From Candidatus Thorarchaeota archaeon (GTDB taxonomy: Archaea; Asgardarchaeota; Thorarchaeia; Thorarchaeales; Thorarchaeaceae), in the NCBI GenBank assembly GCA_016933575.1, contig JAFGAR010000028.1, positions 220,530-284,529 of the forward strand: a stretch of DNA of 64,000 nucleotides, written 5' to 3'. Below are positions 4,698-40,116 of this stretch, piece by piece (the first letter of the stretch is position 1; each line of letters begins with the position of its first letter). The notes under the pieces are model-generated. The model made no database searches. It worked only from the letters and a program-made list of their open reading frames with translations, and had not been told where the DNA came from. Made by a program: the position numbers and the translations under genes.

Positions 4698-5135
4698 CTA
4701 CTCTTCTTTCTCAAGGTGAATTGCTATGTTACCTCCTCCTAAATAGCCAATGGGGGCAAAACCTATCTCATGGAATACGAGTCCATTTTTGTCCAAGACA
4801 CGAATCTGATAGACATCAATACCACCGGATTCATCAACATCCCAGACATCTACTCGAAACTGATAATTCCCGACATCCCAGAGAAGTTCTCCGGTTTCAG
4901 AGTTGTACTTCTGAATAGTACATCTACCTTCAAAGAATGCATGGTCCTCCTCAATTGCCATTCCAATCCATGCATTACTCTTGATGATTGATAGCCAATC
5001 CCCTTCTCGGAAGGTGTAGATGGATTGACCCTTAGGAAGACCTTTCTTTGTATACTTCACATTAAAGCCAAAGTTACTCTTACTACCAGAGGGTCCAATA
5101 ATCCATCCACCTCCTGTAACGAAATCTCCAGTTGG
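4698..5135 (-). other. C-terminal GGGWI/post-COAP-1-like domain of giant protein
   Basis: DFVTGGGWIIGPSGSKSNFGFNVKYTKKGLPKGQ...DVYQIRVLDKNGLVFHE. Confidence 0.5.
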
Positions 5136-20100: not shown

Positions 20101-22202
20101 TCATCTGATTCAATTACCTCATCAGCACAATCTACATGTATCTCAAGAATATGATATCCAGGTCCTACATCATCACAGGGATAATAGAAGTGATGATACC
20201 CACCTGCGACGATTGTCACATCTTGGATAGTATAAAGAAGGTTTAGAGCAATCAGTTGATTTTGATCATCCCTATAATCACTCCATATCTCGATATCAAA
20301 GTTGGATGCTACAGAACCTCCAACATTGAAAACATCGAATGAAATCGAAAAGGACTCCCATCCAATTAGATTTGATGAGACCACAATATTGTCAATTGTC
20401 AAATCTGGCAGAGCAAGAATTTTCAGCGCATTATCTATCCATATAGAATCAACCTGTTGCCATATCCCATCCACCTGATACCAAAGTCCCCAAACGACAC
20501 CATAATTGCCTGGACTAAGACCATTAAGATCGAAATATCGTTCTTGCCATTCCGGATAGCTTGGAATCCAGAGCGTAACATCATTTTCAGGGTCATCAAA
20601 TGTACCGCTAGCATTGAAAAGAGATGCACCTAAACCAACGCAAATTGAAGAACCAAATGGGTTATTTATGTAGTAATTGAATTTTATGATTCCGCCTTCT
20701 ACTGCAGATGTTGCATCAAGACTAACATCAAGCAAAGAGGGGAGAGGTGGATTCACTTTTACCTTGACTACACCACTCTCTCTTATGTTACCCCCTACAT
20801 CCCAAACTTTCGCTTTAAAGAAATATACACCCTCCGTAAGGTCGCCAATAGGATAAGAAAATGATGATCCATCCCAAGTAGTATCAATATCCTTTACATA
20901 CCAAGGCTCGGTACTACTCGAACTCTCAAAAATCACGTATGTGCTAGGATACATATCATAAGCAGTCCAAACAATCGAATAGGAACCAGAACCCTCAACG
21001 AATTCAATATCAGGAGGTGTAATTAGGATGGGAGGTGTAGTATCTGGAGGAACATCAAGATATTTCCAATCCCAGTTATTATCTTCTTCAACTTCCCATG
21101 AACTACCAGGTATCCATGGAGATCCGGGGGTATGATCAGCATGAATATCAAGTGAAGGAGTTCCACTTGGAATAGAATATGTTACGAAATTACTACTCCA
21201 AGTTAGACCAGCTCCAAGATAACTCCTAGTCAAATCCTTTATGCATGACCCATAATCGCCATTTCTCCAGTTCTTCCAAAAAGAAAGATGAAAATTAGTT
21301 GCAGCCAAATTACCCATATTCTGAACTGAAAAGGAAACTGTTGTAGGACCACCCCCTACTGTTGTATTTACTAAGAAAGCAGTAACCTTAAGGTCTGGAC
21401 CTCTGATTGTTATTGGTTCATCCTCATAATCAAGAGCTGTGTATCCCTCAAAAGGACCATCCCATATTGCAAAGCGAATCATCTTAGATCCACCTATATT
21501 GTAGTTCTCTGGGTCGCCAAATTGGTCATATTGAACTCTAAATAATCTTGAATCAGTCGCTGCATCATTTGCGTGAATTATTATTGATAGCTTGTCGTGA
21601 TCTGGATCACTAAGCCAAACTCCAGGATTAATCACAACCGAAGCGCCTAGCCATACTCGTATATCAAAGTCTTCATGATTAATAATACGATACCATATTG
21701 TGAAAGTTTCTCCGACTGCAACATCATTATCACTGATATAAGATAATGAATAGTCTAATTCAGCATCATATAGTCCTTCACCATATTCTCCAGCATGATA
21801 TCCATCTGGACTAGTAAGGGAAAATTCTTCGAGCTCGAACTGCGGGAAATCTTGATTATAATGAGTTATCAAGGCTGGATTTTTGTAATCACCTGATTTT
21901 GTATCAGAGTCGCTTGTGATTTGGAAAGGAGATAATACTTCATCTAGAGAAGGATAGGTAACAAGCATAGATTCAGGTTGTGTATATAAACTTCTATCAA
22001 TTGAGTTGATGATTTTATCACTCAGATATACTTCATCGTTATTCAAAATCGTAGATGATACAGGTATTTTAGAATCTTCTAAACTTTCCCAATCAACAAT
22101 CTTCGACACATCGATTGCCACCGAAAACATCGGAGCAACCATCAGTACAATCATCACTACAGAAATAATTCGCATTCCCACTGACCTATTCATGACACCC
22201 AT
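4698..22202 (-). CDS. Giant secreted multidomain surface protein with C11-like peptidase, FG-GAP propellers, Ig-like and OmpL47-like repeats
   Basis: Single 5,834 aa ORF; signal peptide MRIISVVMIVLMVAPMFSVA; domain motifs read directly in the translation. Confidence 0.9.
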   Translation of the reverse strand: MGVMNRSVGMRIISVVMIVLMVAPMFSVAIDVSKIVDWESLEDSKIPVSSTILNNDEVYLSDKIINSIDRSLYTQPESMLVTYPSLDEVLSPFQITSDSDTKSGDYKNPALITHYNQDFPQFELEEFSLTSPDGYHAGEYGEGLYDAELDYSLSYISDNDVAVGETFTIWYRIINHEDFDIRVWLGASVVINPGVWLSDPDHDKLSIIIHANDAATDSRLFRVQYDQFGDPENYNIGGSKMIRFAIWDGPFEGYTALDYEDEPITIRGPDLKVTAFLVNTTVGGGPTTVSFSVQNMGNLAATNFHLSFWKNWRNGDYGSCIKDLTRSYLGAGLTWSSNFVTYSIPSGTPSLDIHADHTPGSPWIPGSSWEVEEDNNWDWKYLDVPPDTTPPILITPPDIEFVEGSGSYSIVWTAYDMYPSTYVIFESSSSTEPWYVKDIDTTWDGSSFSYPIGDLTEGVYFFKAKVWDVGGNIRESGVVKVKVNPPLPSLLDVSLDATSAVEGGIIKFNYYINNPFGSSICVGLGASLFNASGTFDDPENDVTLWIPSYPEWQERYFDLNGLSPGNYGVVWGLWYQVDGIWQQVDSIWIDNALKILALPDLTIDNIVVSSNLIGWESFSISFDVFNVGGSVASNFDIEIWSDYRDDQNQLIALNLLYTIQDVTIVAGGYHHFYYPCDDVGPGYHILEIHVDCADEVIESDEDQNWWWDKNWFKSPDLILENIKVYDVYNNLFGKLASGQPFTLEFDVRNGGDYWIDQVYTIAIIVDEGYSRYLLRDVPLLGTSFHISETFVFSNIGMHSIDIIVDYYQQVGEANKLTTCGIGTGEDNQDSGYSPYIWAAEWTVIIYLDGDNNLDVFADNDLEEIGQIGSNSEMSVICLKDGASDGDTFLRFYMPGIFIGLEYLLWVYYYIEYETSSSFQGDPLYVPWLESELDMANPRTLTNFVEWSASTFQAQHYALIVMDHGGGADNILLQDGTNDNIGMSVSEFGQALEDTAIELDIVGFDACIMGMVEIAYQLRNSAEILVASEDNEQGRPELSILPPFINYVGGWPYHLILSGLQTALETSGTISSQDFASLMVDEYYIFAPEATATMGAFKIFEIVQYLVPALDNLAQLLLDNIASYESMIYDARITADQYPGSGVDLVDFLEKLQLRITNSEIQYAIQVVLDSYSASYINHCYKSAHPDSHGIAIYFPQHVISYNKPYDGLDCSITYSWDEFVWGFHNYLHHPNQVNSEPSVSIITPSEGLVISGEWYFIWDVSDSNYDRIWYTAEYSPNLGQTWYPFFTTYEYAKGYYHEYLFDSTDLPDSKNMKFRLHYDDEWGGTGVIVSGTFEIDNLPNRQPIISITGPIEGQICEDVFGLFFDCFDDDYDWVHFKIFISIDGGLTWVESFQSFDFLCSPTGHSLGLPIHTDDILLSTNCIVLIAFNDNNGGAGSEFTGVFTIDNRISVTLTIAISDSSIVYPQSVLISSTIIPAVDGREIILQISNDGVTWIELFSDNTVLGAIQYNLLSPEPGNYYLRAIIESDSNYKSGTSDEIELEVDKIQTQLSIVSSTSFLILDDTVLINGWLTPSLDNHIAEFYWSYDDESWQKFGEAISSNGVFTIDWTPTLSGDYYIMCVYFGDAHYYGSISNHLELTISERYPTTLITEISSTSIRYDTSATINVTISPILDLKYVVIEYSVDGLDWQEISAGNTGSNGKFIASWIYDPGTYYIRSRWDGDPQYWSAISEIISLEIYDDIGPQISGQIYYPYDAGTLGHFLDWNIIEPYPGTYEILKDGNPIYSGQIESETISIAIDGLNPGLYVFTLWANDAYNNPSSMDVTVEVFGNTPYGIDVEVVDSETGVSIVFDETLTAGITTIIASTTPPHPHTGFKLGGNYYYDITTTATYIGTITIALPYEGKQNDAGESNLKLKHLENGEWIDVTLWIDVVNNIAYGEVNSLSWFAVLEDDTPPVTVIDIDGTPGDNDWFTSGVTITLTSTDEGLGVETIAYSFDEVNWIEYTGPFTFSEQGEFTIYFNATDVAGNPEVTKSDDFKIDLPYTDSDNALIITTRDGHVMRQDYNPITGAFDLIWDTYMPAYIFHTFALNDTNNDGHLELYVSGYETYIRLMRFDYEDGSLLWSWQVPAEVSCAFIFGMYFEDLNNDGIKEIVTQHLPRQVAPTLFIHDSDGNLLAQYNPGWRVDRGFLADYNGDGVRDAYLMAGAAIYPQGQPRVQVVDLRNFAMTQLLYFQDSYSGGMTDFEVVNIDADPQPEFFVAGWGPPVVAYDHDGTFLWQRSFPGGNADRNIKTYLGLISLGTGIVCTTSYSEVTLYAYYINMTTGADVLPPLPLWGRGSFTIDIFDLNGDGFYEVALYDWTETNARIHLWDLATGTNLWTYDVSRRLYYSEDCYDNLNQFIDYDGDGKRDLIFVDKNMNLMKASYDGTLTKIGDVPGIEAYYWSMFKHVDQPYPQTTVTLDGTIGFDDWYSTYVEFSLNAIDDVSGVARIEYSYDGIDWITYSNPIVVSANGINILYYRSIDNAGNIEPYQIITIKIDTTAPITEAFPSGDVVNAPWYTSPVTISLEVNDEFSGIYSTEFSFDGVTWIEYSIPVTIHNNGQNWFYYRSTDRNGNVETNPPIEILIDQPSPFPQNPISFTSTHIVNTWSSIDEVFIEWFGASDAFSGVYGYSYEWSHEIDTLPDTILDTTSTSLTTTLESGIWYLHIRTSDVAGNWAFSAYHIGAFRIDDTLPNVYASALGVVGQNNYYLSSVDVVIWGFDLPTGLDYIMYSLDGVTYCTYLEMFTLEYEYSYDIRYYGVDNLGNPSLEKHLIFSIDKTRPSTSISRGGTQNLNGQYIESIDISLSCEDQESGPNYVEYRLNGGPWHRYDQTLTIAQSGFYLFECYSVDMAGNCEVVQSIEFEVINYESGPVSLSLTWDTGNIGIVHDIRVGDVDADGRNEIVLAIESSYGVGHVRVYDGLTHSLERIIYMADGYARSLALGDCDHDGTIEIVVGTVGTWQSGPIGRIRVFSGTTGALEWETVRHEAFHTVGVEDIDADGAMEIIGMVITERVNNIRTPGTVMIIDGQTKAIEWETSSFGFGIGDYSWIGNLDDDPALELVFGGRTANDLPYTNTIWIVDGATHTVQDSLVVGALHTMCFDAADYDIDGSLDLVVGFIDQAAGTGFLRAYDTSLNFNWEYFIGTGLYSYSITMANLDTDPTLEIAAGIADASGNWYGHFRIIDAVSQSLLYTRPNKNAGLVVCVEDINGDGFTELAIGYHAGFSSGCMEVYDTGVPAPTNPSLEFLWETGNIGIVHDIVSGDVDADGVPETIVAIEPGYGSTGYIQIYNGITHSLERTIYLSAGYARVVALGDPDEDGQIEILVGTCGWWQTGPIAGIAVYNGLTGALEWLSPINNGVYSLWVEDIDADGEQEIIGITDFERDGSNMINGLVLVYNGKTHSEEWRSSEYGLCLGGYHSLANIDSDPALELIFGSRDSLYAPFEGTLFIVDGASHEVQDSISLGPFLVTSIQTATIASNGSLRIIAGLREQDATINYVNMYDNNLDLLWSYTLGTNICPNIVKAANFDSDQNFEIAVGIGYANGAWTGEFQIIDWETNSIIFQRTSTNSVISFYYGDFDFNGIADFAVGYHAGFSAGSMVVYSTGVTIFNPTPLVVYVTRPVLNNPGTISTDGSVSLSWTLSVSSLGSISYYQVQYSASPIFSIIQGEFTTTDLQISLTALPYGECYLRVRAIDDTGSHSYWSNDEYIDVVREYLPPSIDNPEDIIFEEGITGENIVWAPVEANPQYYKIFLDGALFEVSSWSGGPVEVSLDGLVAGNYYFIIQVFDIYNNWIADAVVVIVEPATPPSIDNPIVDPYEAGTTGHTITWSPDDFCPISFIVYLDNVEYTSGDWFGGTITIAIDGLDPGVYEFRIQVYDQVGLSSSSTVIVTVVDLTPPVLPGISFNAEGGSIGNVGEIQPFDLYPGTYEIYYEGGLVASGEWDGITPIQFIFDASLVGVFTYEFYCYDAYDNVAYTEFTITVVDTVNPDVDGISSITYEEGSTGNVIVWTATDLFQSNYEITLNGVPVFADLWVGNTIEYSIDGHSPGTYYYTVTCYDTSGNSASHQVTAIVVDTTPPAVDGPTQIEYEAGSLGNQIFWTASEPHPLRYMISLDGEPIVLGLWSGNDIQRNIDGHNPGTYYYTLTCWDVFNNEGSHEVTVVVEDTTKPLITSPLDDIYVEAGSSGNTITWYCFDLYPDRYILWDGVETREGPWTGTSLTITIIDRGVGAYNHSITFFDANSNWASDSVWVYIVDTTPPSIDGPLEIVYEDGTTGHTIVWTATDLYPTTYEVTLNGGPVFSDDWTSGTIEYNIDGHTAGTYHYTLICYDESGNSASHQVTVIVEDTTPPSVSGPSEIIYEAGSTGNQIVWDVFDLHPFDYEISLNGVPVRLGLWGGTTISYNIDGNDPGTYYYILTCWDVFNNAGSHQVTVIVEDTTPPDIIGPDDLVYEAGVPGHSLTWSFSDLYPDSYIILRNGTQVDSGLWIGSDISISVDLLNPGTYNFTFVAFDAYGNQASDTAWLTVEGNTPAGSDIEVIDPETGISLTFDETSVPGTTEVEITETGPHPPDDFRLMGLYYNITTTAVFDGVIIVALPYDATLVHGLEKNLKLWHWAEPAGWQDCTTWVDEVNNIIYGEVTHLSIFGAMEDNAPPTTHHSLSGTEGLNGWFVSDVFVELTAVDTVSEIENIYYSVDGVTWFTYTSPELIQNEGLTTFYFYSIDIAENIETINQIDIYIDKSCPFTYYLTGGPIFEFYITSWSEFYLTFSDDISGVSLSFYRIDGGSWIEYDDPFYIFGSDGYHTLGFYSIDTAGNCELETTVWFFLDNTAPVTTKSIGSPTVGEFVTTETVFALTSVDAGIGYFWTFYRINGGSWIEYSDPFSLLGPDGEYTIEFYSVDFVANEEIFQSQVHRLDNTPPETVLSFGEPISGDYITSVTPISLAANDGLGVGVDSIFYCINGGGWETYSGSFTVLGPDDTYLIEYYSIDYLGNTEDVLSIVINLDNSAPISSLVIGTPYSDPYLTSFTEISINVADGGSGVAALFYSIDSGLYVPYIGPFTLPSVDGLHSISYYGIDNLGNMETSVTEQFVVDDTSPVTSIIEGSPIFNSYITSATSLSLSAIDEGVGVDSIFYRIDEGAWVLYSSSFYLVGPDGQYIIEYYSVDYLGAQEDIISETYILDNTAPSSIHTFIGNMGDNDWFVSIVAVELSSSDAGSGVSAIFYSLDAGPATEYVGSFDVTVEGFHNLEYWVVDNLGNVEAPQKSADFKIDTVAPESIASLTPAIPNGLANWYISPIGVVLSFSDDTSGVCETYYRVNGAAWIKYESGLSFIEDGVYLLEFWSSDFAGNQESTQSVSFTLDQTSPITSHSICEPKFSIDPTYIKTVTPITLEAVDNLAGVARTEYRINMGVWIEYLIPFYITEFGYHTINYRSIDVAGNLEDYHSFDVIVNAVELTYIGEVVGDYSDPTQLQAQLVDIATQELISGKVIYFILGAQSTSAVTDEFGIATASMIINQPAGVYTVVSTFNADSEFSFCDDSASYTIEKETAIPEYTGSTVVPTTSDEITIRVTVFDEDDGFYGDITRIQVTFRIYNVPIDLNAPVLVFGPVYLEESSVDGVGVITLEIDNLSENGYIIIVSIESGDNPYYNGPDSDPVILTIFEPTGDFVTGGGWIIGPSGSKSNFGFNVKYTKKGLPKGQSIYTFREGDWLSIIKSNAWIGMAIEEDHAFFEGRCTIQKYNSETGELLWDVGNYQFRVDVWDVDESGGIDVYQIRVLDKNGLVFHEIGFAPIGYLGGGNIAIHLEKEE
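5770..8165 (-). repeat. Nine tandem ~88-aa OmpL47-like repeats (block B)
   Basis: DNTAPVT..GSP..G.YITS.T.ISLSA.D.G.GV..IFYRIDGG.W..Y..PF.L.GPDG.Y.IEYYS.D..GN.E repeated. Confidence 0.8.
8523..10952 (-). repeat. Nine tandem 90-aa Ig-like repeats
   Basis: PPSIDGP.EIxYExGxTGxxIxW..DLxPxxYxIxLxG..W.G..I.xxIDGxxPGTYxYTxxCxDxxxNxxSHxVTVxVxDTT; 2430 bp = 9 x 270 bp. Confidence 0.85.
11280..13475 (-). repeat. Two tandem seven-bladed FG-GAP-like propellers, near-duplicate of each other
   Basis: Each starts W(D/E)TGNIGIVHDI..GDVDADG and ends VGYHAGFS.G.M.VY.TGV; seven DxDxxxE-type blade motifs per copy (one degenerate in copy 2). Confidence 0.75.
13490..14870 (-). repeat. OmpL47-like repeat block A (about five units)
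   Basis: DTTAPIT..WYTSPVTISLEVNDEFSGIYSTEFSFDGVTWIEY..FYYRSTDRNGN-type units. Confidence 0.6.
14880..16080 (-). other. FG-GAP/VCBS-like propeller 1 of giant protein
   Basis: DTNNDGHLELYVSG, DLNNDGIKEIVTQ, DYNGDGVRDAYLMAG, NIDADPQPEFFVAG, DLNGDGFYEVALYD, DYDGDGKRDLIFVD; about seven units. Confidence 0.7.
18515..19690 (-). other. Clostripain-like (C11) cysteine peptidase domain of giant protein
   Basis: WTVIIYLDGDNNLD start; YALIVMDHGGG (His codon 19314..19316); IVGFDACIMGMVEIAYQL (Cys codon 19185..19187); SHGIAIYFP. Confidence 0.85.
19780..21420 (-). other. CARDB-like domains (three units) of giant protein
   Basis: DLKVTAFLVN..VSFSVQNMGN, PDLTIDNIVVSS..FDVFNVGGSVAS, PDLILENIKVYD..FDVRNGG. 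Confidence 0.6.
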
Positions 22203-29292: not shown

Positions 29293-29456
29293 TATTCACA
29301 CCTGCTCAAACGTCGAAAATACTACTTTTAATGAAAGCTTAATCGGCAAATAGCGACTTCCGTTCAAAGCGATGGCAACTTTTGCCGTATTCACAGGCGG
29401 GTCATTTAAGTGGCCTAATAGTTTTTGAACACCATCTCAAATCAAAGGAGATACCA

Positions 29457-30509
29457 ATGACGAGAATAGGGGTTATGTCTGGTCAAGAGGCAGGTATGCT
29501 TGAAGATGCGCGAAGCATTGTAGATACTCTGAAGGCAAATGGTACCGACTATGTCATTGATGATAAGCTAGCTGATACCCTAGGTCAAAAAGGTATTCCA
29601 GTAAAAAAAATGGATGTAGAAATCCTTGCCATTGTTGGATCAGACAGATTCCTTCTCAAGACTCTCCTTGAACTTGGACAGACAGATATTCCTATTCTCC
29701 CAGTGGCATCAAAAGGACAGCCAGATTTCCTATTTGATGTACTAGTGAATAATTTTGAAACTGTGATTGATGACTTGATGGAAGGACATTGGACACGTGA
29801 AGAAAAGACTAGACTTGTCGCAGAGATATCAGGGAAAGATACTCCCCCTCTTCTGAATGATATTGGAATATTTGCTAGACGTAGTGCTACTCTAATACGA
29901 TACTCGCTCCTTATCGATGGTGAGCATTTTTGGAAAGATGGAAGCGATGGTCTTATTGTTGCAACTCCTACCGGAAGCACTGCATATTCTCTAAGTGTTG
30001 GAGGTCCTATTGTTCTCAATTCTGCACCGGTCTTCTCAATAATACCAGTGAATAGTGTTAATCCTTCAAGAAGACCTCTAGTTGTACCTGAAGATCTGAT
30101 ATTAGAGATTCAGGAACTAACCAGTTCTGTAGCAATAGAAGCAGTGTTAGATGGGCAGATAAGAAAGAAGATAGATAGCAAGCCAATTAAAATCCGCAAG
30201 GCAGATCAAAGTGCGGTCTTCGTAAAATTTGAACTTGAGCGAGTCGCTGCATTGAGAGGGAAATTGCTAAAGAAATCTGAAACCTCAGAGGACCAAGCTT
30301 ACGAACTGCCGCCAAGTGCTAAACTTGTATTGAAAGTTCTTGAATATCAGGAACAACTAAGCCAAAAGGAAATAATAGAGGAAACTATGCTGCCTGCTCG
30401 AACTGTACGCTATGCACTATCTCTCTTGATGAGCGAAGGACTCGTTATTAAACGTCTATCCTTAAGAGATAGTCGCCAGGGTATCTACCAAGTTAAAAAG
30501 AAGACATGA
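29457..30509 (+). CDS. NAD-kinase-fold protein with degenerate GGDGT motif fused to C-terminal wHTH
   Basis: DGLIVATPTGSTAYSLSVGGPIV (NADK signature) retained; GGDGTFL position reads VGSDRFL; C-term SAKLVLKVLEYQEQLSQKEIIEETMLPARTVRYALSLLMSEGLVIKR is wHTH; ATG 29457 with AAAGGAGAT RBS. Confidence 0.8.
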   Translation: MTRIGVMSGQEAGMLEDARSIVDTLKANGTDYVIDDKLADTLGQKGIPVKKMDVEILAIVGSDRFLLKTLLELGQTDIPILPVASKGQPDFLFDVLVNNFETVIDDLMEGHWTREEKTRLVAEISGKDTPPLLNDIGIFARRSATLIRYSLLIDGEHFWKDGSDGLIVATPTGSTAYSLSVGGPIVLNSAPVFSIIPVNSVNPSRRPLVVPEDLILEIQELTSSVAIEAVLDGQIRKKIDSKPIKIRKADQSAVFVKFELERVAALRGKLLKKSETSEDQAYELPPSAKLVLKVLEYQEQLSQKEIIEETMLPARTVRYALSLLMSEGLVIKRLSLRDSRQGIYQVKKKT

Positions 30510-30539: not shown

Positions 30540-32678
30540 GTGAATGTATTGAAAGGACCCCCAAAAACGAAACATAAGGAAATCAAAGATATCTTTGACA
30601 AAGCATCCGAAGATTTGAAGAATTTATCCAAGGGAAAGAAGATATCTGCGGGAGAAGGTCCTTTTGGAGAATCACAAGAATACATCATCTTTGAGTTGGC
30701 CAAGGCAACAAATCAATCGACTGAGAATCTAGCTATTGCTTCAATAGCCAATGACCTGCTCCTAGAAATCTATAGAGATATTCGAGATGAACCCAAACCT
30801 GAGGATATTATTTCTGCAATGAACCTGTGTCTCTATGGTTTGATCTTTGGTAACTACGACGAGGAAGATTTCCGATATGTCTACAGATATTCACTGAGAT
30901 ATGTAAGAAATCAAGCTCCAATAGAGAAGTGGTTACGAAAAGCTTTGCTCTTCTTAGCAGCGGTCAATAATGACGGGTTATCCGATATTCTCAAAGAGGC
31001 CCGTTTCTGGATTCAATTCCTCGGAGCGCCGCTATTTGGTACAGCGTCATTTGTTGAGCCAGGCTCCGAACTCGGATTCGATATCCAATCAATAGTGGAC
31101 TCAGAAGAATATCGGCTTGTTGATGCAGTAACTCGACATCCACAGTACCTCAAAGAAGCAATACAGAATAGGTCATTCTTTGATGCATATCAGGCTTTAG
31201 AAGAATGGGCACCTGATGTGATTCTCCAGCAACTCCTAAAAACCAAAAGAGAAGAAGTATACAGTAAGGGACAGGATGATATCACTCCTGCTATGTCAGT
31301 AGAAGATGCAGTCAAATCAATGACCAAGGTATTTGAAAAAGAAGAATTCAGAACCAGCAAACAGACAGTCCTTCCAGTGAAACTACAAGAACTCTCGAAA
31401 CCACCACCGGGAGAAGCTGTTGATCCTGTCATTTTCGAACTCATACCTCAAAAGCTCAGAATGGGATTGCTACCAGCTGTAGCTTATTCAACGAAGACTA
31501 AACAGATCGAGATCATCTTTCTTGGAGGACCTCGAATAGGAAGAAGCGGGATTCTGATCAAAACAGACACGAGCGGCATATTGCTTGACTTTGGGCTCTC
31601 CGTTGCAAATCATCGAATTCCTGAATGGGTTCCCGAACTTGAGATGGTCGATACTATCTTGATAAGTCATGCACATCTTGATCATGTCGGTGGACTTCCG
31701 GTTCTGTACGAAGATTTCGTAGGAAAATGGTGCTCTGTGGGGCCAACTGGAGGAATCACAAAAGTCCTACTTGACGATGCTTTGAAAGTGGGTACTCCTT
31801 TTCCTCCGCGAAAACACAATCCTCTTGATCTCATTTCGAGATACAACGAAACCAATATACAGAAAGTGATGAAGAATCATGTCAAGCTTGAGTATGGAAT
31901 AAGCAGTGAGGTAGGACCGGGGATTGTGGTCACTCCCATTGATGCATGTCATATTCCAGGTAGTGCAGTCTATTCTATTGACATAGAAGGCGTTAAAATC
32001 CTATACACAGGTGATTTCAATATCGATAAGTCAATCTTGTTCTCTGGAGCAAATCTACCAACAGATGCAGACTATGTCATCTTTGATGGAACATACTATG
32101 GCAGAGAGGACTTCAATAGAGAAAAAGTTGCAGACCGATTGAGTAAGACCATTGCAACACATGGTCCCATTGTCATCCCAAGCTTTGCGGTGGGAAGATC
32201 GCAAGAGATCCTGATGATACTAGATGAGCTTGGGATAACTAAGAATAGGAATGTTATGGTCACCGGTATGGCTGAACAGGTCACCAAATTAGTGGGGGTC
32301 TCTGGAAACTGGGACAGCATGAAGAAGAATCAGATTCATCTTGAAGATGATGATGTTCTAGTAGCAGGAGGCGGGATGATGAGTGGAGGGCTTGCAAGAC
32401 AGCACTTCAATGAACAGCGAGACAATCCAAAAGCTGCGATCATTCTGTGTGGGTATCTAGCACCAAGAACATCGGGATGGAATCTTCTCCATGGATATGA
32501 ACCTCATGAGTGTGCTGTTGAATATGCTAGACTAAGCGCACATTCATCCTCATCAAATTTGGAGGCATATGTCGATTCTTGCAAAGGAAAACGCTACATG
32601 GTCCATACGCCAGTCTTTTCTCAACCAAAGGGAATTACTATTCCAGATTATAAAGAGAGAGTTGTTATACAAACTTGA
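30540..32678 (+). CDS. Beta-CASP metallo-beta-lactamase (CPSF-like) with ~300-aa uncharacterised N-terminal domain
   Basis: ILISHAHLDHVGGLP, ILYTGDFN, DGTYYGR, IPSFAVGRSQE, SAHSSSSNLEAYV; N-terminal 300 aa without visible KH motif. Confidence 0.85.
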   Translation: MNVLKGPPKTKHKEIKDIFDKASEDLKNLSKGKKISAGEGPFGESQEYIIFELAKATNQSTENLAIASIANDLLLEIYRDIRDEPKPEDIISAMNLCLYGLIFGNYDEEDFRYVYRYSLRYVRNQAPIEKWLRKALLFLAAVNNDGLSDILKEARFWIQFLGAPLFGTASFVEPGSELGFDIQSIVDSEEYRLVDAVTRHPQYLKEAIQNRSFFDAYQALEEWAPDVILQQLLKTKREEVYSKGQDDITPAMSVEDAVKSMTKVFEKEEFRTSKQTVLPVKLQELSKPPPGEAVDPVIFELIPQKLRMGLLPAVAYSTKTKQIEIIFLGGPRIGRSGILIKTDTSGILLDFGLSVANHRIPEWVPELEMVDTILISHAHLDHVGGLPVLYEDFVGKWCSVGPTGGITKVLLDDALKVGTPFPPRKHNPLDLISRYNETNIQKVMKNHVKLEYGISSEVGPGIVVTPIDACHIPGSAVYSIDIEGVKILYTGDFNIDKSILFSGANLPTDADYVIFDGTYYGREDFNREKVADRLSKTIATHGPIVIPSFAVGRSQEILMILDELGITKNRNVMVTGMAEQVTKLVGVSGNWDSMKKNQIHLEDDDVLVAGGGMMSGGLARQHFNEQRDNPKAAIILCGYLAPRTSGWNLLHGYEPHECAVEYARLSAHSSSSNLEAYVDSCKGKRYMVHTPVFSQPKGITIPDYKERVVIQT

Positions 32679-32690
32679 TTCAAGATTGGA

Positions 32691-34643
32691 TTAGGATACT
32701 ATTTGGAGTACGCCATCTAGGACCAATTTTGTTGCAACAAATTTCATTGCAGGAAGACTGACATTAAGTTTCCTCACAACATCCTCCAGTGAGGTCAATC
32801 CATCACACAAGTCAACAAATTTTAAAACAACCGGTCCATAGGCTTTCTCGGTCTCTTCATCCACACGACCAATCTTCTTGAGATAGCTCGTAGGTCCAAT
32901 CTCGACTTTGAAATCAATCCAACCGTAAAAGTTTAGGATCTGAAGGCTTCCAATCACAGTTTCACGAGGAAGATCAAGACTACGTACTAGACCACCAACA
33001 GTATCGTTCTGTTCAATTGCGCTCTGAACTTCTACAACTGCAGACCCAACTTTTCGATTATTGAATGGCAATGGTCTGCCAGCCTCACGCGCACGAACAA
33101 TATAGTCAAGACTAACAGGGCGTAGAGGTACCTTTGATAGGACATCAAAGATGGACGACTCAAAGATGGACTGGTCTCCATTCCAGGTCTCCCAAACATC
33201 ATCAAACTGGTGTTCAATATCGATAAGCAGTGAATTCAAGATACTGCGTTGTTCTTTTTCCTCGCTGTCATTAGTCACAATCAGAGCCATCACGAGATGC
33301 TTGGATTTCTCAACCATAACGAGATTTCCTTCATGTTCGATGGTCTCCAGCGCATTTGTTGAGATGCCATCAGTCTCTCTACCATCGATGCCACCAAAGG
33401 AGTCGAGTGCGGAGATAAGAGATGCAATAGCATTCTTGTCAATCTCCTCATCAGAATAATTGAGGTGATATACGACCTCTGGGAGACCTTCTTTTGTAAC
33501 AATAAGCATTAGATGAAGGACCTCAGAATGCTCAGGTACGACTTCAGCTACAAGACCAGCATCAGTGGACACCACAGTATCAGTGGTCGGATTGGTCTTG
33601 GTAGTTGTCTGTTTTGTTCCTTGTGCCATCTCTGTCGATGTGCTTCCGGGTTTTAGTCCTGTGGGATCGTACGGTACATCTTCAAAACCAGTCTCTTGAG
33701 CCTGAGCTTGTTTCTCGGCTGTTCCGGGTTGCCCCATCTCCTCGGTACCCCTTCGGACTGTGATCATCTCACTAATAGGTAGGTCAGGAAGAGTGACTCC
33801 AACGGTCTTTGCAGCAACTTCAAGCATTAACCTGATGAACTCTTCACGACGGGTCTTATCTGTTGCAACCATCTGGAACGTTGGTGCTCCAAGCAGTCGT
33901 TTGATCTTCTCTGCCTTCATCGACTCAGGAAGGTCCTGTTTGTTCGCAATAATGAAGAGGGGTACTGCTGGTGCTTCTTTCTTGATATTTCGTAAGAGGG
34001 ATTTGGTCTGCATGACATTTCTGAAGCTTGAATCAGTGACCAAGAAGATAACGTCAGTCCCAGAGAAGTAGAAACTCCAGAGATCTTGAAAAACAGCCTG
34101 TCCAGCGAAGTCCCAGATTGTTACAAGAAAAGTGCCGAACTGTATCGTTTCAGACGAGTCTACGGCCACATTGATGGTGGGAGTGTATCCGCCGGGGGCT
34201 GGTTCTTTACCGAATAATAGACGTAGCAGAGTAGACTTGCCAACACCACCAGAGCCTACAAAGGATATCTTGAACCTTGTGAAGATGAGCTCTCCAAGGA
34301 TGTCGTCAAGATTGTCGCGAATGTACCCAATACTGTTACCACGTAAAGCAATGGAGATTCTTGCAGCACCTTCGCGTACACGATGCTGTATGACTCGGTC
34401 CTCATCACGACCATCAGTGACAAAGAGAAGTAGCATCTCACCATCCACTTCAGCATGAAAGACCTTGTGTTTTTCAGCGACAAAGACAGGTATATCAGAA
34501 GCAAGACCTTCAGTAGTAGTAAGGTCTCGATAGCCTGCAAGGAAATCACTGATGTCATGTTCAAGAAAGTCGATCTTCCAGAACCTAGTTCGCACTACAA
34601 CGTTGCCATCATCTTTGCCAATCAGCAATACGTTGTGAATCAT
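32691..34643 (-). CDS. Longin-like / Arf-Rab-like GTPase / longin-like / wHTH multidomain protein
   Basis: G1 GSGGVGKST, G3 WDFAGQ, G4 NKQD; flanking longin-like segments MIHNVLLIGKDDGNVVV.. and HLMLIVTKEGLPEVVYHLNY..; C-terminal helical HTH-like tail. Confidence 0.8.
   Translation of the reverse strand: MIHNVLLIGKDDGNVVVRTRFWKIDFLEHDISDFLAGYRDLTTTEGLASDIPVFVAEKHKVFHAEVDGEMLLLFVTDGRDEDRVIQHRVREGAARISIALRGNSIGYIRDNLDDILGELIFTRFKISFVGSGGVGKSTLLRLLFGKEPAPGGYTPTINVAVDSSETIQFGTFLVTIWDFAGQAVFQDLWSFYFSGTDVIFLVTDSSFRNVMQTKSLLRNIKKEAPAVPLFIIANKQDLPESMKAEKIKRLLGAPTFQMVATDKTRREEFIRLMLEVAAKTVGVTLPDLPISEMITVRRGTEEMGQPGTAEKQAQAQETGFEDVPYDPTGLKPGSTSTEMAQGTKQTTTKTNPTTDTVVSTDAGLVAEVVPEHSEVLHLMLIVTKEGLPEVVYHLNYSDEEIDKNAIASLISALDSFGGIDGRETDGISTNALETIEHEGNLVMVEKSKHLVMALIVTNDSEEKEQRSILNSLLIDIEHQFDDVWETWNGDQSIFESSIFDVLSKVPLRPVSLDYIVRAREAGRPLPFNNRKVGSAVVEVQSAIEQNDTVGGLVRSLDLPRETVIGSLQILNFYGWIDFKVEIGPTSYLKKIGRVDEETEKAYGPVVLKFVDLCDGLTSLEDVVRKLNVSLPAMKFVATKLVLDGVLQIVS
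33790..34277 (-). other. Arf/Rab-like GTPase domain
   Basis: aa ~123-285 of the 650-aa protein, G1-G4 motifs intact. Confidence 0.85.
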
Positions 34644-34726
34644 CTATTTCTCACGCTCTATGTTCAAGAATTCCTCATTATTCTAGGTTATCTATCTTTC
34701 TCGCTCGTTTCAAGCTTATTATGTTA

Positions 34727-36430
34727 TCATTTCTCCTTTAGAGAAACAAATCCTCGTTTATGCAACTCAGCGAAGACTTTGACAAGCACGCTGGGCTGCA
34801 CTCCCATTGCATTTGATATACTCTGGATAGTTACTTCACCATCAACGAACTTCAATATTTCTTCTAGGTTGGCATAGAGTGCCAGTGTTTCTTCATCAGT
34901 CTCCTTGATTAATGTTGGTACGTCATCTATTGAAACTCTAAGCTGGCAATCGATTGCATCCAATCTCTTGAGAAGATGAATGGCTCCAAGGATTAATTCG
35001 GGACCTTTTCCAGGTGCCAGACGAGCCATCGTAATTGACCCATCCAATCGGGTCCACACAGCTTCGAGGAAATCCCCAACAGAAGCGTGTTCAAACCTGT
35101 CCCAGACAAGAGCTCGTTTTTGCCGTGGGGCTACTCTTTTTGGTATGTCTTCTGGAGGAAGTGTTGCCAGTAATTTTATGGTGAAGAGAGGCGACCTGAA
35201 CAGGTCAGTCGGATCTTCCGAGACCTCAGGAACCTCATCAGTGAACAACTCTGGGAGGAATGAGAATCGTGTACGAAGAGACTCTACATCAGCATCCTTT
35301 CCAGTGATTAGAGTAAAGACATATTCATCACGTTCAATCGTAATATAGCTCAGATCACCCGTTCTGAAGACCGAGGTCTCTGCGGATTTAGAGGTATCAA
35401 TCCTGAAGGAGGTTATAGCGGCGACAATGTTTGGGGACATTTCAAGAAATCGTGAACGCTCCTGATAGTAGTAGCTATACGCAGCTTCACCAGTTCGTTT
35501 ATCCACAACAAAGAAGGCTTGATGTCCGATGTCTTCTTCGACCTCTTCTTTTTCCTCTAGCAGTTCGCTCTCCAGGTCCTCAAGTATCCACTTCTCACGG
35601 GCAAGTTCAGGATGTACATCACTGAAACCACCGTAAGCCATCACCGAGAGAAGAAGCGACATGGGTTTGGGTGAAACAGAATCGCACAGATCAACACCAT
35701 AACGTATCTCAAGGTCACGTGTAGTATCAAGATCCCTATCAGAACCAGGTACAACAATGATTCTTGCAGCAGACTCACTTCGAAGGCGCAAGACTACTTC
35801 TTGGATTGTATCACCCGCAGACATCTTAGAGTTCACAACTAGTGCAAATACATCCACTGATGACAGAAGTTCATTCCAGGCGATTTTGATAAGTTCTTTG
35901 AACGACATTTGGATTGCCTTGACTGAGAAGGGACCGATAGCTATAGAGTCAGTCAGTACACTTCCGTTAGGCCGCTTGATGGACATTAGAGAATCAACTG
36001 CAATTGCTGACATGTTATCAGCAAATGATTCTGATTGTGTCACGAAACAGATTCTCAAGGGAGTTCGCAACTCAGCCTCAGCGTCTTCAATAAAATCACC
36101 TTTGAAATCTCGAACTGAAGAGGTGTCTACTTCCTTTGTCACAATTTTCTGTACAGATTGAATTCTAGTTATCTCATCATCAGAAAAAACATCAGAGTCA
36201 CTTATAGTAATGATAATCGTTACATCATTTATCTTACCAATTGCTACTGCGTGTTGATGTACCTTGGTGAGTATGAATGGTTGAGTTGATTCTTCTTGGA
36301 CTAATGTGTAGTATTCTTCAACTACTGTCAGTAGAAAATCTTCTGACAATTCCTCTTTCATGAATGATAGTGATGCAAGTACCTTAGACCCAAGCAAGTC
36401 ATAGAGGAGTGTACTAGCTATCACGACCAT
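34727..36430 (-). CDS. Probable pseudo-GTPase paralog: longin-like / degenerate G domain / longin-like / wHTH
   Basis: Order of segments parallels the 650-aa neighbour; QAFFVVDKRTGEAAYSYYYQE..SYITIERDEYVFTLIT longin-like; RICFVTQSESFADN in place of P-loop; C-term VTIQSISNAMGVQPSVLVKVFAELHKRGFV wHTH. Confidence 0.6.
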   Translation of the reverse strand: MVVIASTLLYDLLGSKVLASLSFMKEELSEDFLLTVVEEYYTLVQEESTQPFILTKVHQHAVAIGKINDVTIIITISDSDVFSDDEITRIQSVQKIVTKEVDTSSVRDFKGDFIEDAEAELRTPLRICFVTQSESFADNMSAIAVDSLMSIKRPNGSVLTDSIAIGPFSVKAIQMSFKELIKIAWNELLSSVDVFALVVNSKMSAGDTIQEVVLRLRSESAARIIVVPGSDRDLDTTRDLEIRYGVDLCDSVSPKPMSLLLSVMAYGGFSDVHPELAREKWILEDLESELLEEKEEVEEDIGHQAFFVVDKRTGEAAYSYYYQERSRFLEMSPNIVAAITSFRIDTSKSAETSVFRTGDLSYITIERDEYVFTLITGKDADVESLRTRFSFLPELFTDEVPEVSEDPTDLFRSPLFTIKLLATLPPEDIPKRVAPRQKRALVWDRFEHASVGDFLEAVWTRLDGSITMARLAPGKGPELILGAIHLLKRLDAIDCQLRVSIDDVPTLIKETDEETLALYANLEEILKFVDGEVTIQSISNAMGVQPSVLVKVFAELHKRGFVSLKEK

Positions 36431-36486
36431 GAGACCTCTCGAAAGTTCCCTAATACTGTATGCTATTCTATGGAGCTGCGTATTGA

Positions 36487-37782
36487 TTAATCAACCTTGT
36501 TTGCCTTTCTCCTTTTCACTAGCTCTTCAAATGGAATCATCCCTCTCATGAAACACTGATAATCGGATGTAGTCCATGAGGAATTATAATCCATGACATC
36601 AGAGCCTCCACCTGATGAGATCTTAGGGAGATCAGAAATGGCTTCGAACACACTGATTGGATGAGAGAGACCATTCTCTTCAGGCTGGGCACTCTCTCTT
36701 GTTTTCCGTGACACAATTCGAGCGAAGCAGCTATCCGGTTTCTCAATAACTTCATTATTCCTATTTGCTAGAATGAATACACGCTTTCTACGTTGAGGTA
36801 CTCCGTATTCTTCTGCATGTAAGAGGAATGCTCTGGTCCGGTATCCTTCCTTCTCAAATGAATCTAATAGAGACTCCAATACTCTTCCGTGTTGCATCCA
36901 TCGTATACCTGGAACATTCTCTAGGATCACATTCTCAGGTTGCAGAGTATGGATTAACTCTATCATTTTAAACACGAGAGAATTACGTGAATCTGTGTGA
37001 TTCCACTTTCCTGCAGTCGAGAAGCCTTGACAAGGGGGACCACCTGCTAGTAAGTTCAATGTCCGTCCATGCAGTTCTGTTTCAATGATGTGGATAAGTT
37101 CTATAATGCCTTCTATGCTTGAGAGGTCGAGTTGTTTAGTCAATGTGTGTGGATGATTATATCGATACGTCTCGCACATGTGGGCATTGAAATCGGAAGC
37201 TAGAACAATTCGATGACCTGTTGCCTGCAGACCTTCGGATAGACCCCCAGCTCCACAAAAGACATCAACGCTCAAACCTTTCTTTCTAATCCTGTCGCTA
37301 ACCGCTCTTGCAAGAAGAGGCGGTACTGCATTCCCTATCTGTTTGAACCGCGAACTAAAACTTCCAAGGAATCTATATGAATCAGGAAAGGACTGTAACC
37401 GCGCAGCCTCTCGTTGAGATATTAGTCGGTCTTGCATTGGGTGAATAAAGGAACCGTTCCCAGGTCTGTTGAAATAGGTATTTACCGTGTAGGAGGGCAG
37501 GTTACCATCCAGTCGCCCGTAGTAGGTGGTACGTCCACCAGAATTTTTAATTTGAGTAAGGCGAGCTGATTTTGCGATAGTTGCTTCAGGTATGTCCTTC
37601 CAATTGCCGCCAGATGGTACAGATTGTAAAATCTCCATATCAAGTTCGCTGAGTGTAGAGCAAATGTGATTGAATAGAATCTTCTCTAGTTCAAGTTTCT
37701 GTTCAGAAGTAGAGATAGTACCATTATTCACACACAGTGTTTTACGACATGCTTTGAAAGTCTTTCCACAACAGATCTTCAA
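36487..37782 (-). CDS. C5-cytosine DNA methyltransferase, circularly permuted
   Basis: Motif IX/X (REAARLQSFPDSYRF, QIGNAVPPLLA) precede motif I (VDVFCGAGGLSEG), IV (GGPPCQGFS), VI (ENVPG), VIII (QRRKRVF) in one ORF; TTG start. Confidence 0.88.
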   Translation of the reverse strand: MKICCGKTFKACRKTLCVNNGTISTSEQKLELEKILFNHICSTLSELDMEILQSVPSGGNWKDIPEATIAKSARLTQIKNSGGRTTYYGRLDGNLPSYTVNTYFNRPGNGSFIHPMQDRLISQREAARLQSFPDSYRFLGSFSSRFKQIGNAVPPLLARAVSDRIRKKGLSVDVFCGAGGLSEGLQATGHRIVLASDFNAHMCETYRYNHPHTLTKQLDLSSIEGIIELIHIIETELHGRTLNLLAGGPPCQGFSTAGKWNHTDSRNSLVFKMIELIHTLQPENVILENVPGIRWMQHGRVLESLLDSFEKEGYRTRAFLLHAEEYGVPQRRKRVFILANRNNEVIEKPDSCFARIVSRKTRESAQPEENGLSHPISVFEAISDLPKISSGGGSDVMDYNSSWTTSDYQCFMRGMIPFEELVKRRKANKVD

Positions 37783-37797
37783 TATCTAAACTTCAAA

Positions 37798-40014
37798 CTA
37801 GGATAGTTCAGAAAAAGCTCTAAGGATTCGACGGCATTCCTCATCGGGGGCTCTACGGTATCGAAGTATCAATTCTACTTCTTTATTATTGAATCCATAG
37901 AGGGAGAAGACAACAGCTTCCAAATTTGGAGAGGGACGGGTCGGATCGGATTTCTGTTTAGCTACTTCTTTTAACATCAAATTTCGGAGACCTCGTTGTT
38001 CTCTCCACGGTAGTATGATTGGGAGATTCTGGAGTTCGCGAATGGACACATGGTTATTGGAATTACTGACCTGAAATCTCCAATTCAATAATTCCGAATT
38101 CAAAAGACCGAGGACAAAGTCAAGCGTTTTAGCATCAGGAGGTGTTACAAGGAGATAGTTACATGAATTAGCCAAGATGGTAGGAGGCGAAATGGATGCA
38201 AATTTCAGTCGCCATCTCTGACCCATATTTGAAACCTGTTGACACGCAATTCGATTCATCCCTATGTGATTGGCACGTTCAGAACTATTAAGGCGGTTAA
38301 GAAATTCATCAAGATTAACAAATTGAGATTCATGAGTGCTTTCTAGTTGAGTAAAACGTGAGATATTAGATCCACGGACTAATCTAATACCTGTGTTATT
38401 CGAAGTCATGAACTTCTTATCAATAGTAAGGTCCAATTCTCCACGACGAATAAGCACTGATTCCAGAGAGAGCAAGCTGGGATGAGTGTGCATTTTTCTT
38501 AGGAGCTTAAACCCAGAGGCATCAATCCGGGGAATTACTAGGGATGCTCCCATAGACCTTGAGATGTCATCTAGAGATATCTTGAAACTATCGCGTTTCG
38601 TAGAAACCCGACAAATAGGCTGGTTGAATCCAATATCAATGGACTCTGTCGTACCACCTCTTGTAAAGGTGAGAATTGAAACGGATTGTGTCACATTGGG
38701 GAAGATTCGGGATGTTTCGGGAAATTCATCAATACTCTCTAATGAATTGTGTAAGAGGAGGTTTCTTCTGAGAGCTTGAGCTGAAATATCACATAGGATG
38801 TTAGAAGGCACAATGCAGCCAATTTTGCCACCTTCTTTTATGAGTTGCAAAGCTCGCTCAATGAAGAGCTGGTAGGTATTTACAGTGTAGCTGGTGGAAA
38901 GTGGGTATTCGTTAGATTTTCGAAAGAAGTGGAGGAGTCTCTTTATTTCATCCTTGTATGCGACATAAAGATCTGTATGAATCTCTTTGTCCCCTTGAAG
39001 GAGACGTTCTCTCATGAACTCTGCAAGGTTTGGCTTTAACCGTTCATAAGGTGGATTCATGATAATGAAATCGAAACCACCATTATCTCTATTGAAGACC
39101 TCTGGAAATTCCTCCTTCCACTCAAAGGGATACCTGTTTTTAAGATTCGTGAAGTATTTCTGATTCTCAGAAAGTCCATCTAGACCGTATCTTGAAATTA
39201 GCGAGTTCCCATTCCTAAGTGCGGCTTTCAAATGAATTCTACTGAGTGACGAGGATTTTGGGGCATTTATTAATTTCAACGAAATATTCGCTACTTCTAT
39301 TGCACCAGAATCAAGATCGACACCATAGAGTGATGGTCCAACATTCTCAAAGAGATTATTCAAATCGGGTACGGATGAGCCAGTAGTTGTAGCTACTTTA
39401 ATTCCCTGTTCCACTGCATCTTGAAGAGCTAAGGATGTTGATATTAGAAATGCCCCAGTACCACAGGCGGGATCTAGAATTTTAAGCGACAAGATGTCTT
39501 GAATTGCTGGAAGACCTTTTTTCTTAATCTTCGAAATAAAGGTCTTTAATCGTGGTTCCAGTGTCAATGATACAATGTAATCCGCAACGATGAATGGTGT
39601 GTAGTATGCTCCAAGTGACCTCTGTCTGGATGGCTTCTTTTGAGATACTGGCAGTCGATACGATCCAATAGAGTGAAGCCTTCCTAAAAGATCAACAAAG
39701 TCCCGAATTGAGAGACCTTCAATTTGCGCTCGTATATCCAGAGTGGTATTGTTGATCATCTCCTGAACAAGATCAATGACCTGGTTTTTGTCAAGGCCTC
39801 TTCGCTCTCCTTCATAGGATAGAGATGTACATGCCAGCTCCTCAGATTCAGGCCCGGAGTGACTGCGTTCTAATCTGCCTCTTAAGACCCAATTCAAGGC
39901 GGAAAGTCTAGATGCGTCGATTGTCATTCTTGTGTCATCAGACGAAATGCTTGTAGCATAATGATGGAAACCACTAATAATTGCCCATGCAAGAGTATCC
40001 AAATCGGTTTCCAT
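37798..40014 (-). CDS. Adenine-specific DNA methyltransferase (Eco57I/TaqI-like, with specificity domain)
   Basis: LGAYYTPFIVADYIV, ILDPACGTGAFLIS, FIIMNPPYERLK; TaqI-like C-terminal domain; ATG 40014 preceded by AGGAG preferred over 40035. Confidence 0.85.
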   Translation of the reverse strand: METDLDTLAWAIISGFHHYATSISSDDTRMTIDASRLSALNWVLRGRLERSHSGPESEELACTSLSYEGERRGLDKNQVIDLVQEMINNTTLDIRAQIEGLSIRDFVDLLGRLHSIGSYRLPVSQKKPSRQRSLGAYYTPFIVADYIVSLTLEPRLKTFISKIKKKGLPAIQDILSLKILDPACGTGAFLISTSLALQDAVEQGIKVATTTGSSVPDLNNLFENVGPSLYGVDLDSGAIEVANISLKLINAPKSSSLSRIHLKAALRNGNSLISRYGLDGLSENQKYFTNLKNRYPFEWKEEFPEVFNRDNGGFDFIIMNPPYERLKPNLAEFMRERLLQGDKEIHTDLYVAYKDEIKRLLHFFRKSNEYPLSTSYTVNTYQLFIERALQLIKEGGKIGCIVPSNILCDISAQALRRNLLLHNSLESIDEFPETSRIFPNVTQSVSILTFTRGGTTESIDIGFNQPICRVSTKRDSFKISLDDISRSMGASLVIPRIDASGFKLLRKMHTHPSLLSLESVLIRRGELDLTIDKKFMTSNNTGIRLVRGSNISRFTQLESTHESQFVNLDEFLNRLNSSERANHIGMNRIACQQVSNMGQRWRLKFASISPPTILANSCNYLLVTPPDAKTLDFVLGLLNSELLNWRFQVSNSNNHVSIRELQNLPIILPWREQRGLRNLMLKEVAKQKSDPTRPSPNLEAVVFSLYGFNNKEVELILRYRRAPDEECRRILRAFSELS

Positions 40015-40116
40015 AATGACTCCTCTATAGGTCATAACGAGTCCCAGAAAGATGTTGTGTTTGAAAGGTCTGTCTATGCCAGCGGAAATAATAGGAAGCT
40101 TGTACTTCTACAGAGT

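Follow-up and report, generated by a model that had tools for sequence, protein, structure and literature searches.

Rag GTPases and the proteins NPRL2 and NPRL3 are partners in eukaryotic nutrient sensing, and Asgard archaea are the microbes nearest to eukaryotes. In NPRL2, Arg78 acts as an arginine finger in a loop of the longin domain, with GTPase-activating protein (GAP) activity towards RagA (PMC8534245, PMC9646525). On the archaeal side, the annotated signatures of Asgard archaea include a class named "NPRL2-like longin domain" (PMC9834061), and Tran et al. 2024 (PMC10933270) describe Asgard longin-GTPase and longin-GTPase-roadblock proteins, including an operonic Rag-like pair in MK-D1. 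Here, we describe two adjacent genes, coding for proteins A and B, in a 64,000-nucleotide stretch of a Candidatus Thorarchaeota genome (contig JAFGAR010000028.1; hereafter, the window), together with the two DNA methyltransferase genes that precede them. In our reading, to which we give a probability of about 60%, A and B are a Rag-type heterodimer fused to a GATOR1-NPRL2/3-like pair and are encoded behind an orphan pair of methyltransferases directed at GTCTC.

The proteins of Tran et al. (PMC10933270) resemble A and B in having a GTPase between longin/roadblock-type domains and in being encoded by paired genes, with a Rag-like heterodimer as the predicted product. Unlike A and B, both of their chains are described as GTPases in the available text, which likewise does not describe the pseudo-GTPase partner, the tandem winged helix-turn-helix (wHTH) tail and the DNA methyltransferases that are features of the A/B locus. 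A search of the open-access literature, with preprints outside its scope, found no paper on Asgard archaea and pseudoGTPases and nothing relevant on DNA methylation in Thorarchaeota.

A clearly has a G domain of the small GTPases of the Ras superfamily (aa 122-285), with the P-loop, the switch II DxxGQ and the NKxD intact. Residues 122-263 match the Pfam families Arf (6e-19), Roc (4e-17) and Ras (4e-14), with Gtr1_RagA also matched (E 4.5e-06), and GSGGVGK[ST], WDFAGQ and NKQD are kept in all A orthologs checked. For B, Pfam gave no GTPase family match, and not one of about 36 B loci examined, a set that includes overlapping copies of the same genome, has a P-loop. The center of B aligns with a broad profile of Asgard longin-GTPase G domains with an hhalign probability of 93.8% (E 1.7e-7), whereas none of the seven segments used as controls exceeded 1.5%. 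B is thus a pseudo-GTPase, that is, a G-domain fold by descent from which the nucleotide-binding motifs are gone. Furthermore, the A-family and B-family profiles are collinear over their full length (97.5%, E 6.6e-12), and B is a collinear paralog of A; in the AlphaFold2 (AF2) models, the linker after the G or pseudo-G domain is ~80 aa long in A and ~20 aa long in B. The first-pass annotation, made from the sequence without database searches, had proposed an active/inactive GTPase pair in a Rag-like unequal partnership, with an intact G domain in A, a degenerate center in B and the same segment order in both. The profile comparisons bear this out, as do the structural comparisons and the co-varying distances given below, and its coordinates, strand and lengths for both genes, as well as the gap of 83 bp between B (upstream) and A, were exact when the window was rechecked.

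The same annotation had seen longin/roadblock-like flanks around the G domain and a wHTH-like tail. The longin part stands and the roadblock part does not, as all four flanking domains of A and B have the order beta-beta-alpha-beta-beta-beta-alpha-alpha (AF2, DSSP); the tail is real, although it consists of two tandem wHTHs in each protein and not of one. The longin fold of the flanks is backed by VAMP7 and zeta-COP longin matches with a root mean square deviation (rmsd) of 2.8-2.9 Å, which for single longins of B extend over 102 columns (VAMP7, 2.8 Å) and 97 columns (zeta-COP, 2.9 Å). In Foldseek searches, Rag/Gtr chains are among the top matches of both models: for B, with a predicted local distance difference test (pLDDT) score of 83.8, they come first against the PDB, followed by SEA/GATOR1, Fuzzy-Inturned and Mon1-Ccz1, and for A they appear with Arf/Arl chains, Asgard ArfR structures among them. 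Because the full-chain TM-scores are low, with an rmsd of about 17 Å, these matches are domain-level ones. Like RagA/C and Gtr1/2, A and B are an unequal paralogous pair in which the G domain is followed by a dimerization fold of the longin/roadblock class. Unlike them, A and B carry an extra N-terminal longin, their C-terminal fold is a longin plus wHTHs instead of a roadblock, B has no nucleotide site, and the G domain of A scores higher in Pfam as Arf (68.6 bits) than as Gtr1_RagA (26.7 bits, cut-off 22).

The C-terminal half of A and B (longin plus two wHTHs) is a widespread Asgard "NPRL2-like" module. In A, this half aligns with the C138 family (hhalign 99.8%, E 8.7e-29), a pair of ~280-aa longin-wHTH proteins encoded separately in the window's own genome; the two genes are adjacent there and in most genomes of the Thorarchaeota family f1, and relatives occur across the phylum. 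Similarly, the N-terminal half of A and B is homologous to C57, a separately encoded, adjacent pair of ~300-aa longin-GTPases in the same genome, both with intact P-loops, and in a distinct Asgard family (locus L133) a longin-GTPase gene and an NPRL2-like gene are near neighbors. The layout of NPRL2-NPRL3 in GATOR1/SEACIT, a longin followed by a winged-helix C-lobe in paralogous pairs, is found in the C-terminal halves of A and B, which differ in being fused to a GTPase half. Two sequence comparisons weakly hint at the same kinship: the first wHTH of C138a reaches 1.8e-4 against HTH_NPRL3, below the cut-off, and the C138-family and B-family profiles both touch residues 171-236 of NPRL2, a stretch that is suggestive twice and significant in neither.

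Searching the genome contigs gave 25 loci, nearly all from Candidatus Thorarchaeota, with A and B found only in f1. In 20 of the 21 loci with upstream DNA, the gene directly upstream of that of A is the one for B, the exception being L027 in G188, so that the adjacency for which the first-pass annotation had proposed a check across Asgard genomes is kept, but within one family. The mean pairwise identity over 14 loci is 70% for A (91% in its G domain) and 45% for B, and the evolutionary distances of A co-vary with those of B once the species signal is taken out (partial r 0.58).

B and A are the end of a conserved four-gene unit. In nearly every genus, the genes of an N6-adenine methyltransferase (MN6), a C5-cytosine methyltransferase (MC5), B and A follow each other in this order, co-directional and with short gaps. 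At E below 1e-60, 32 of the 228 genomes of the phylum carry the C5 gene, all of them in f1, and in 30 of these carriers it is directly 5' of B; the remaining two are a separate restriction-modification (R-M) system and a copy cut by a contig end. The N6 enzyme matches TIGR02987 with 257.7 bits, short of the curated cut-off of 353.5, and its open reading frame (ORF) may begin a few codons ahead of the true start. NPPY is present in all N6 sequences but one, and PPCQG in all C5 sequences. The C5 enzyme has motif X before motif I, the permutation of M.Alw26I, M2.Eco31I and M.Esp3I (PMC5944983), and the pair as a whole, N6-adenine plus circularly permuted C5-cytosine methyltransferase with a GTCTC core proposed from the genome signature, resembles the Alw26I/Eco31I/Esp3I R-M systems (PMC5944983). 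Unlike these, the A/B unit has no endonuclease, its methyltransferases being followed by B and A instead, and it is vertically inherited. The Alw26I-family endonuclease TIGR02986 is absent from the four-gene unit and was found in only 2 of 47 family genomes (G201 and G188), both times at a distinct locus that lacks A/B and includes another methyltransferase pair, which makes the A/B-linked methyltransferases orphans. A type IIG style nuclease in the N-terminus of the N6 enzyme was considered and rejected, no residue being invariant in the first 140 positions. The recognition domain is the best-conserved part of this enzyme (56%, vs 49% for the catalytic domain), in keeping with a fixed specificity. 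G218 and G219 have neither methyltransferase, yet retain both A and B; in the sequences from G218, which were inspected, A has its motifs intact. Absence in metagenome-assembled genomes (MAGs) was counted only where the region is assembled. Accordingly, an apparent joint loss of the whole four-gene unit in G193, G203 and G212 was dropped as evidence, since the adjoining beta-CASP gene is missing as well and these MAGs lack the region, and G214 was not used as a true B-less genome, because its A cut at the N-terminus, the missing B and the runs of N make a wrong join likely.

Alw26I recognizes GTCTC, and this motif was predicted from the methyltransferase family before the 5-mers were counted. 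Where the C5 gene is present (7 of 7 data sets), the observed/expected ratio (O/E) of GTCTC is 0.46-0.70, with a depletion rank of 2-4 of 1024, and GTTTC, the product of a C-to-T change at the inner C, stands at 1.12-1.35. Without the C5 gene (G186, G218, G219), the ratios are 0.92-0.94 for GTCTC (rank 60-207) and 0.99-1.05 for GTTTC; within one genus, G186, lacking the gene, has 0.92 for GTCTC and G187, carrying it, 0.47. G188, with the R-M type pair, is also depleted (0.60). The signature is correlational but specific, and because it tracks the C5 gene it argues that the methyltransferase pair is active, or was until recently; it also points to GTCTC as the recognition core of the orphan pair.

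Some further features of these motifs were observed. In most genomes where the other xGTCTC hexamers are depleted, GGTCTC is spared or over-represented (third-order O/E about 0.85-1.35), and GGTTTC is enriched there despite the spared GGTCTC; this sparing is not seen in G184, G218 and G219. In the window, a GGTCTC site (36431-36436, minus strand) immediately precedes the start codon of B, and several relatives have GTCTC sites shortly before the N6 gene. CCAGG/CCTGG is depleted as much as GTCTC in the window's own genome, and also in G218, which is without these methyltransferases.

In the scheme that we propose, A and B would form an obligate heterodimer, a Rag GTPase pair fused to a GATOR1-NPRL2/NPRL3-like pair, whose longin domains and tandem winged helices would pair across the chains. 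A would bind and hydrolyze GTP, B being a fixed structural partner, and the NPRL2-like half would read or stimulate the nucleotide state of A in cis and pass the output on through protein contacts, while the methyltransferases would methylate both strands of GTCTC/GAGAC. The computations show the domain anatomy, the degeneracy of B, the conserved adjacency and four-gene unit, the missing endonuclease and the genome signatures of GTCTC methylation, whereas dimerization, GTP cycling, GAP action in cis and a functional contact with the methyltransferases are what we infer. The most likely role of A and B is that of a housekeeping GTP switch, linked to GTCTC methylation but not strictly dependent on it. 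Several points weigh against this scheme. The model of A is of modest confidence (pLDDT 70.0), and its G domain relies on the sequence; the NPRL2 match of the C138 and B-family profiles (E 0.18-0.37) is not significant alone; and the distances of A show no co-variation with those of either methyltransferase (A-MN6 -0.11, A-MC5 -0.27), which, with G218 and G219, means that the link between A/B and the methyltransferases may be loose or absent.

There is a real possibility that A and B are a GTPase heterodimer with its own cellular role, in membrane or nutrient signaling as for Rag, and that the methyltransferases are conserved neighbors with no functional contact. No assembled copy of the locus lacks A, genus g12 at least has lost the methyltransferases with A/B retained, the absent co-variation fits, and synteny also extends downstream to the beta-CASP and NadA genes and, in most cases, that of NAD kinase. 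However, the flanks upstream of the N6 gene vary from genus to genus although the four genes remain linked, and B does co-vary weakly with MN6 (0.32) and MC5 (0.29), which are themselves strongly coupled (0.71). The opposite extreme, in which the Rag/GATOR1-like fusion heterodimer controls or reads a chromosome-wide GTCTC methylation made by a domesticated restriction-system pair, is rather unlikely. G218 and G219, with the lack of co-variation of A, favor a self-standing Rag-plus-NPRL2/3 switch that usually accompanies GTCTC methylation without depending on it.

A DNA-directed output had been put forward in the first-pass annotation, and a GTPase-controlled transcription switch, its wHTHs binding DNA and perhaps sensing the methylation state, could invoke the tandem wHTHs in both chains, their weak similarity to those of Rrf2 and CodY, and the DNA methyltransferases within the same unit. 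We consider it improbable and do not retain that output: the net charges of the wHTHs are near zero (+1/-2 in A, +2/-3 in B), no significant match to a DNA-binding family was found for them, and their nearest named relatives, through weak matches, are the winged helices of NPRL2/NPRL3, which to our knowledge are not known as DNA binders. Lacking a basic character, the wHTHs more likely pass on their output through protein contacts.

An R-M-like defense, with A/B replacing the endonuclease and acting in a GTP-dependent manner on DNA unmethylated at GTCTC, is highly improbable. The methyltransferases do belong to a true R-M family, G201 and G188 have a similar pair with the TIGR02986 endonuclease in place of A/B, and B and the N6 enzyme evolve fast. 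Nevertheless, G218 and G219 have lost both methyltransferases, with GTCTC back to near its expected frequency, and keep A/B; attack on unmethylated GTCTC would be intolerable there, so A/B was rejected as a restriction arm. Furthermore, neither model has a nuclease fold, the place on the chromosome is fixed and inherited vertically, and the recognition domain is the best-kept part of the N6 enzyme. A PADLOC search of A/B gave no meaningful match. Least probable of all is that B is a longin-Rossmann protein of another kind (DENN-like) that does not pair with A, as might be argued from its missing P-loop and its weak single-segment alignment with A's own G domain (10.7%), against which stand the match to the broader GTPase profile with its controls, the strand/helix order equal to that of A (AF2) and the full-length collinearity.

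The coordinates of the features are collected in the table below.

Table. Features of the A/B locus in the window, and the positions of a protein type met beside longin-GTPase genes at other loci
Feature	Position	Strand	Basis
Protein A, 650 aa: longin 1-GTPase-variable linker-longin 2-wHTH1-wHTH2	32691..34643	(-)	64-79% identity to full-length orthologs
A tandem winged helices, aa 510-650	32694..33116	(-)	AF2; hhalign to C138 family E 6e-23
A longin 2, aa 371-509, NPRL2-like module	33117..33533	(-)	AF2; hhalign to C138 family E 1.4e-10
A predicted active G domain, aa 122-285: GSGGVGKST, WDFAGQ, NKQD	33789..34280	(-)	Pfam and motifs
A longin 1, aa 1-121, order bbabbbaa	34281..34643	(-)	AF2/DSSP; hhalign to B longin 1 E 6.7e-5
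Protein B, 567 aa: longin 1-pseudo-G domain-short linker-longin 2-wHTH1-wHTH2	34727..36430	(-)	Profile alignment and AF2
B tandem winged helices, aa 431-567	34730..35140	(-)	AF2; hhalign to A wHTHs E 1.6e-11
B longin 2, aa 304-430, best-conserved part of B	35141..35521	(-)	AF2
B pseudo-G domain, aa 122-283, no P-loop, PGSD at NKxD position	35582..36067	(-)	hhalign E 1.7e-7 with controls; Foldseek Rab2A TMt 0.54
B longin 1, aa 1-121	36068..36430	(-)	AF2
Circularly permuted C5-cytosine DNA methyltransferase (MC5); motif X GNAVPP before motif I FCGAGG; PPCQG intact	36487..37782	(-)
N6-adenine DNA methyltransferase (MN6), Alw26I/Eco31I/Esp3I type; NPPY intact	37798..40035	(-)	TIGR02987 E 2e-76
MPVALLLIDWDSKIGAVLKAKVP-type protein	L064:7161-8318, L070:2700-3836, L072:9624-10760, L073:3276-4469, L133:6306-7358, L068:11519-13093

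Around the unit, the NAD kinase is fused to a C-terminal MarR-like wHTH (29382-30509, plus strand) and is syntenic in many relatives. Synteny in relatives also holds for the beta-CASP metallo-hydrolase gene, which is convergent with that of A and codes for an N-terminal extension of ~330 aa (30540-32678, plus strand). Genus g8 has one more small GTPase gene, immediately 5' of the N6 gene (L142:2550-3143, L071:3-497). Elsewhere in the window, a single ORF of 5834 aa occupies 4698-22202 on the minus strand. In several Asgard families, a conserved protein of 350-525 aa that starts with MPVALLLIDWDSKIGAVLKAKVP and has no Pfam family at cut-off is encoded beside or near longin-GTPase genes, and paralogs of ~605 aa (L064:4876-6693, L070:5175-6989) have an A-like longin-GTPase N-terminal half and a C-terminal half with no Pfam match of its own.

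In A and B, a Rag-like pair and an NPRL2/3-like pair appear to be joined in single Asgard chains, a fusion that would give independent support to an old functional link between the two. The pair is also a natural experiment on what a pseudo-GTPase partner does. Finally, its place behind an apparently active two-strand methylation pair makes the control of archaeal DNA modification by a Ras-like GTPase testable; if A and B do control or read this methylation, they would represent GTPase-to-epigenome signaling in the lineage nearest to eukaryotes.

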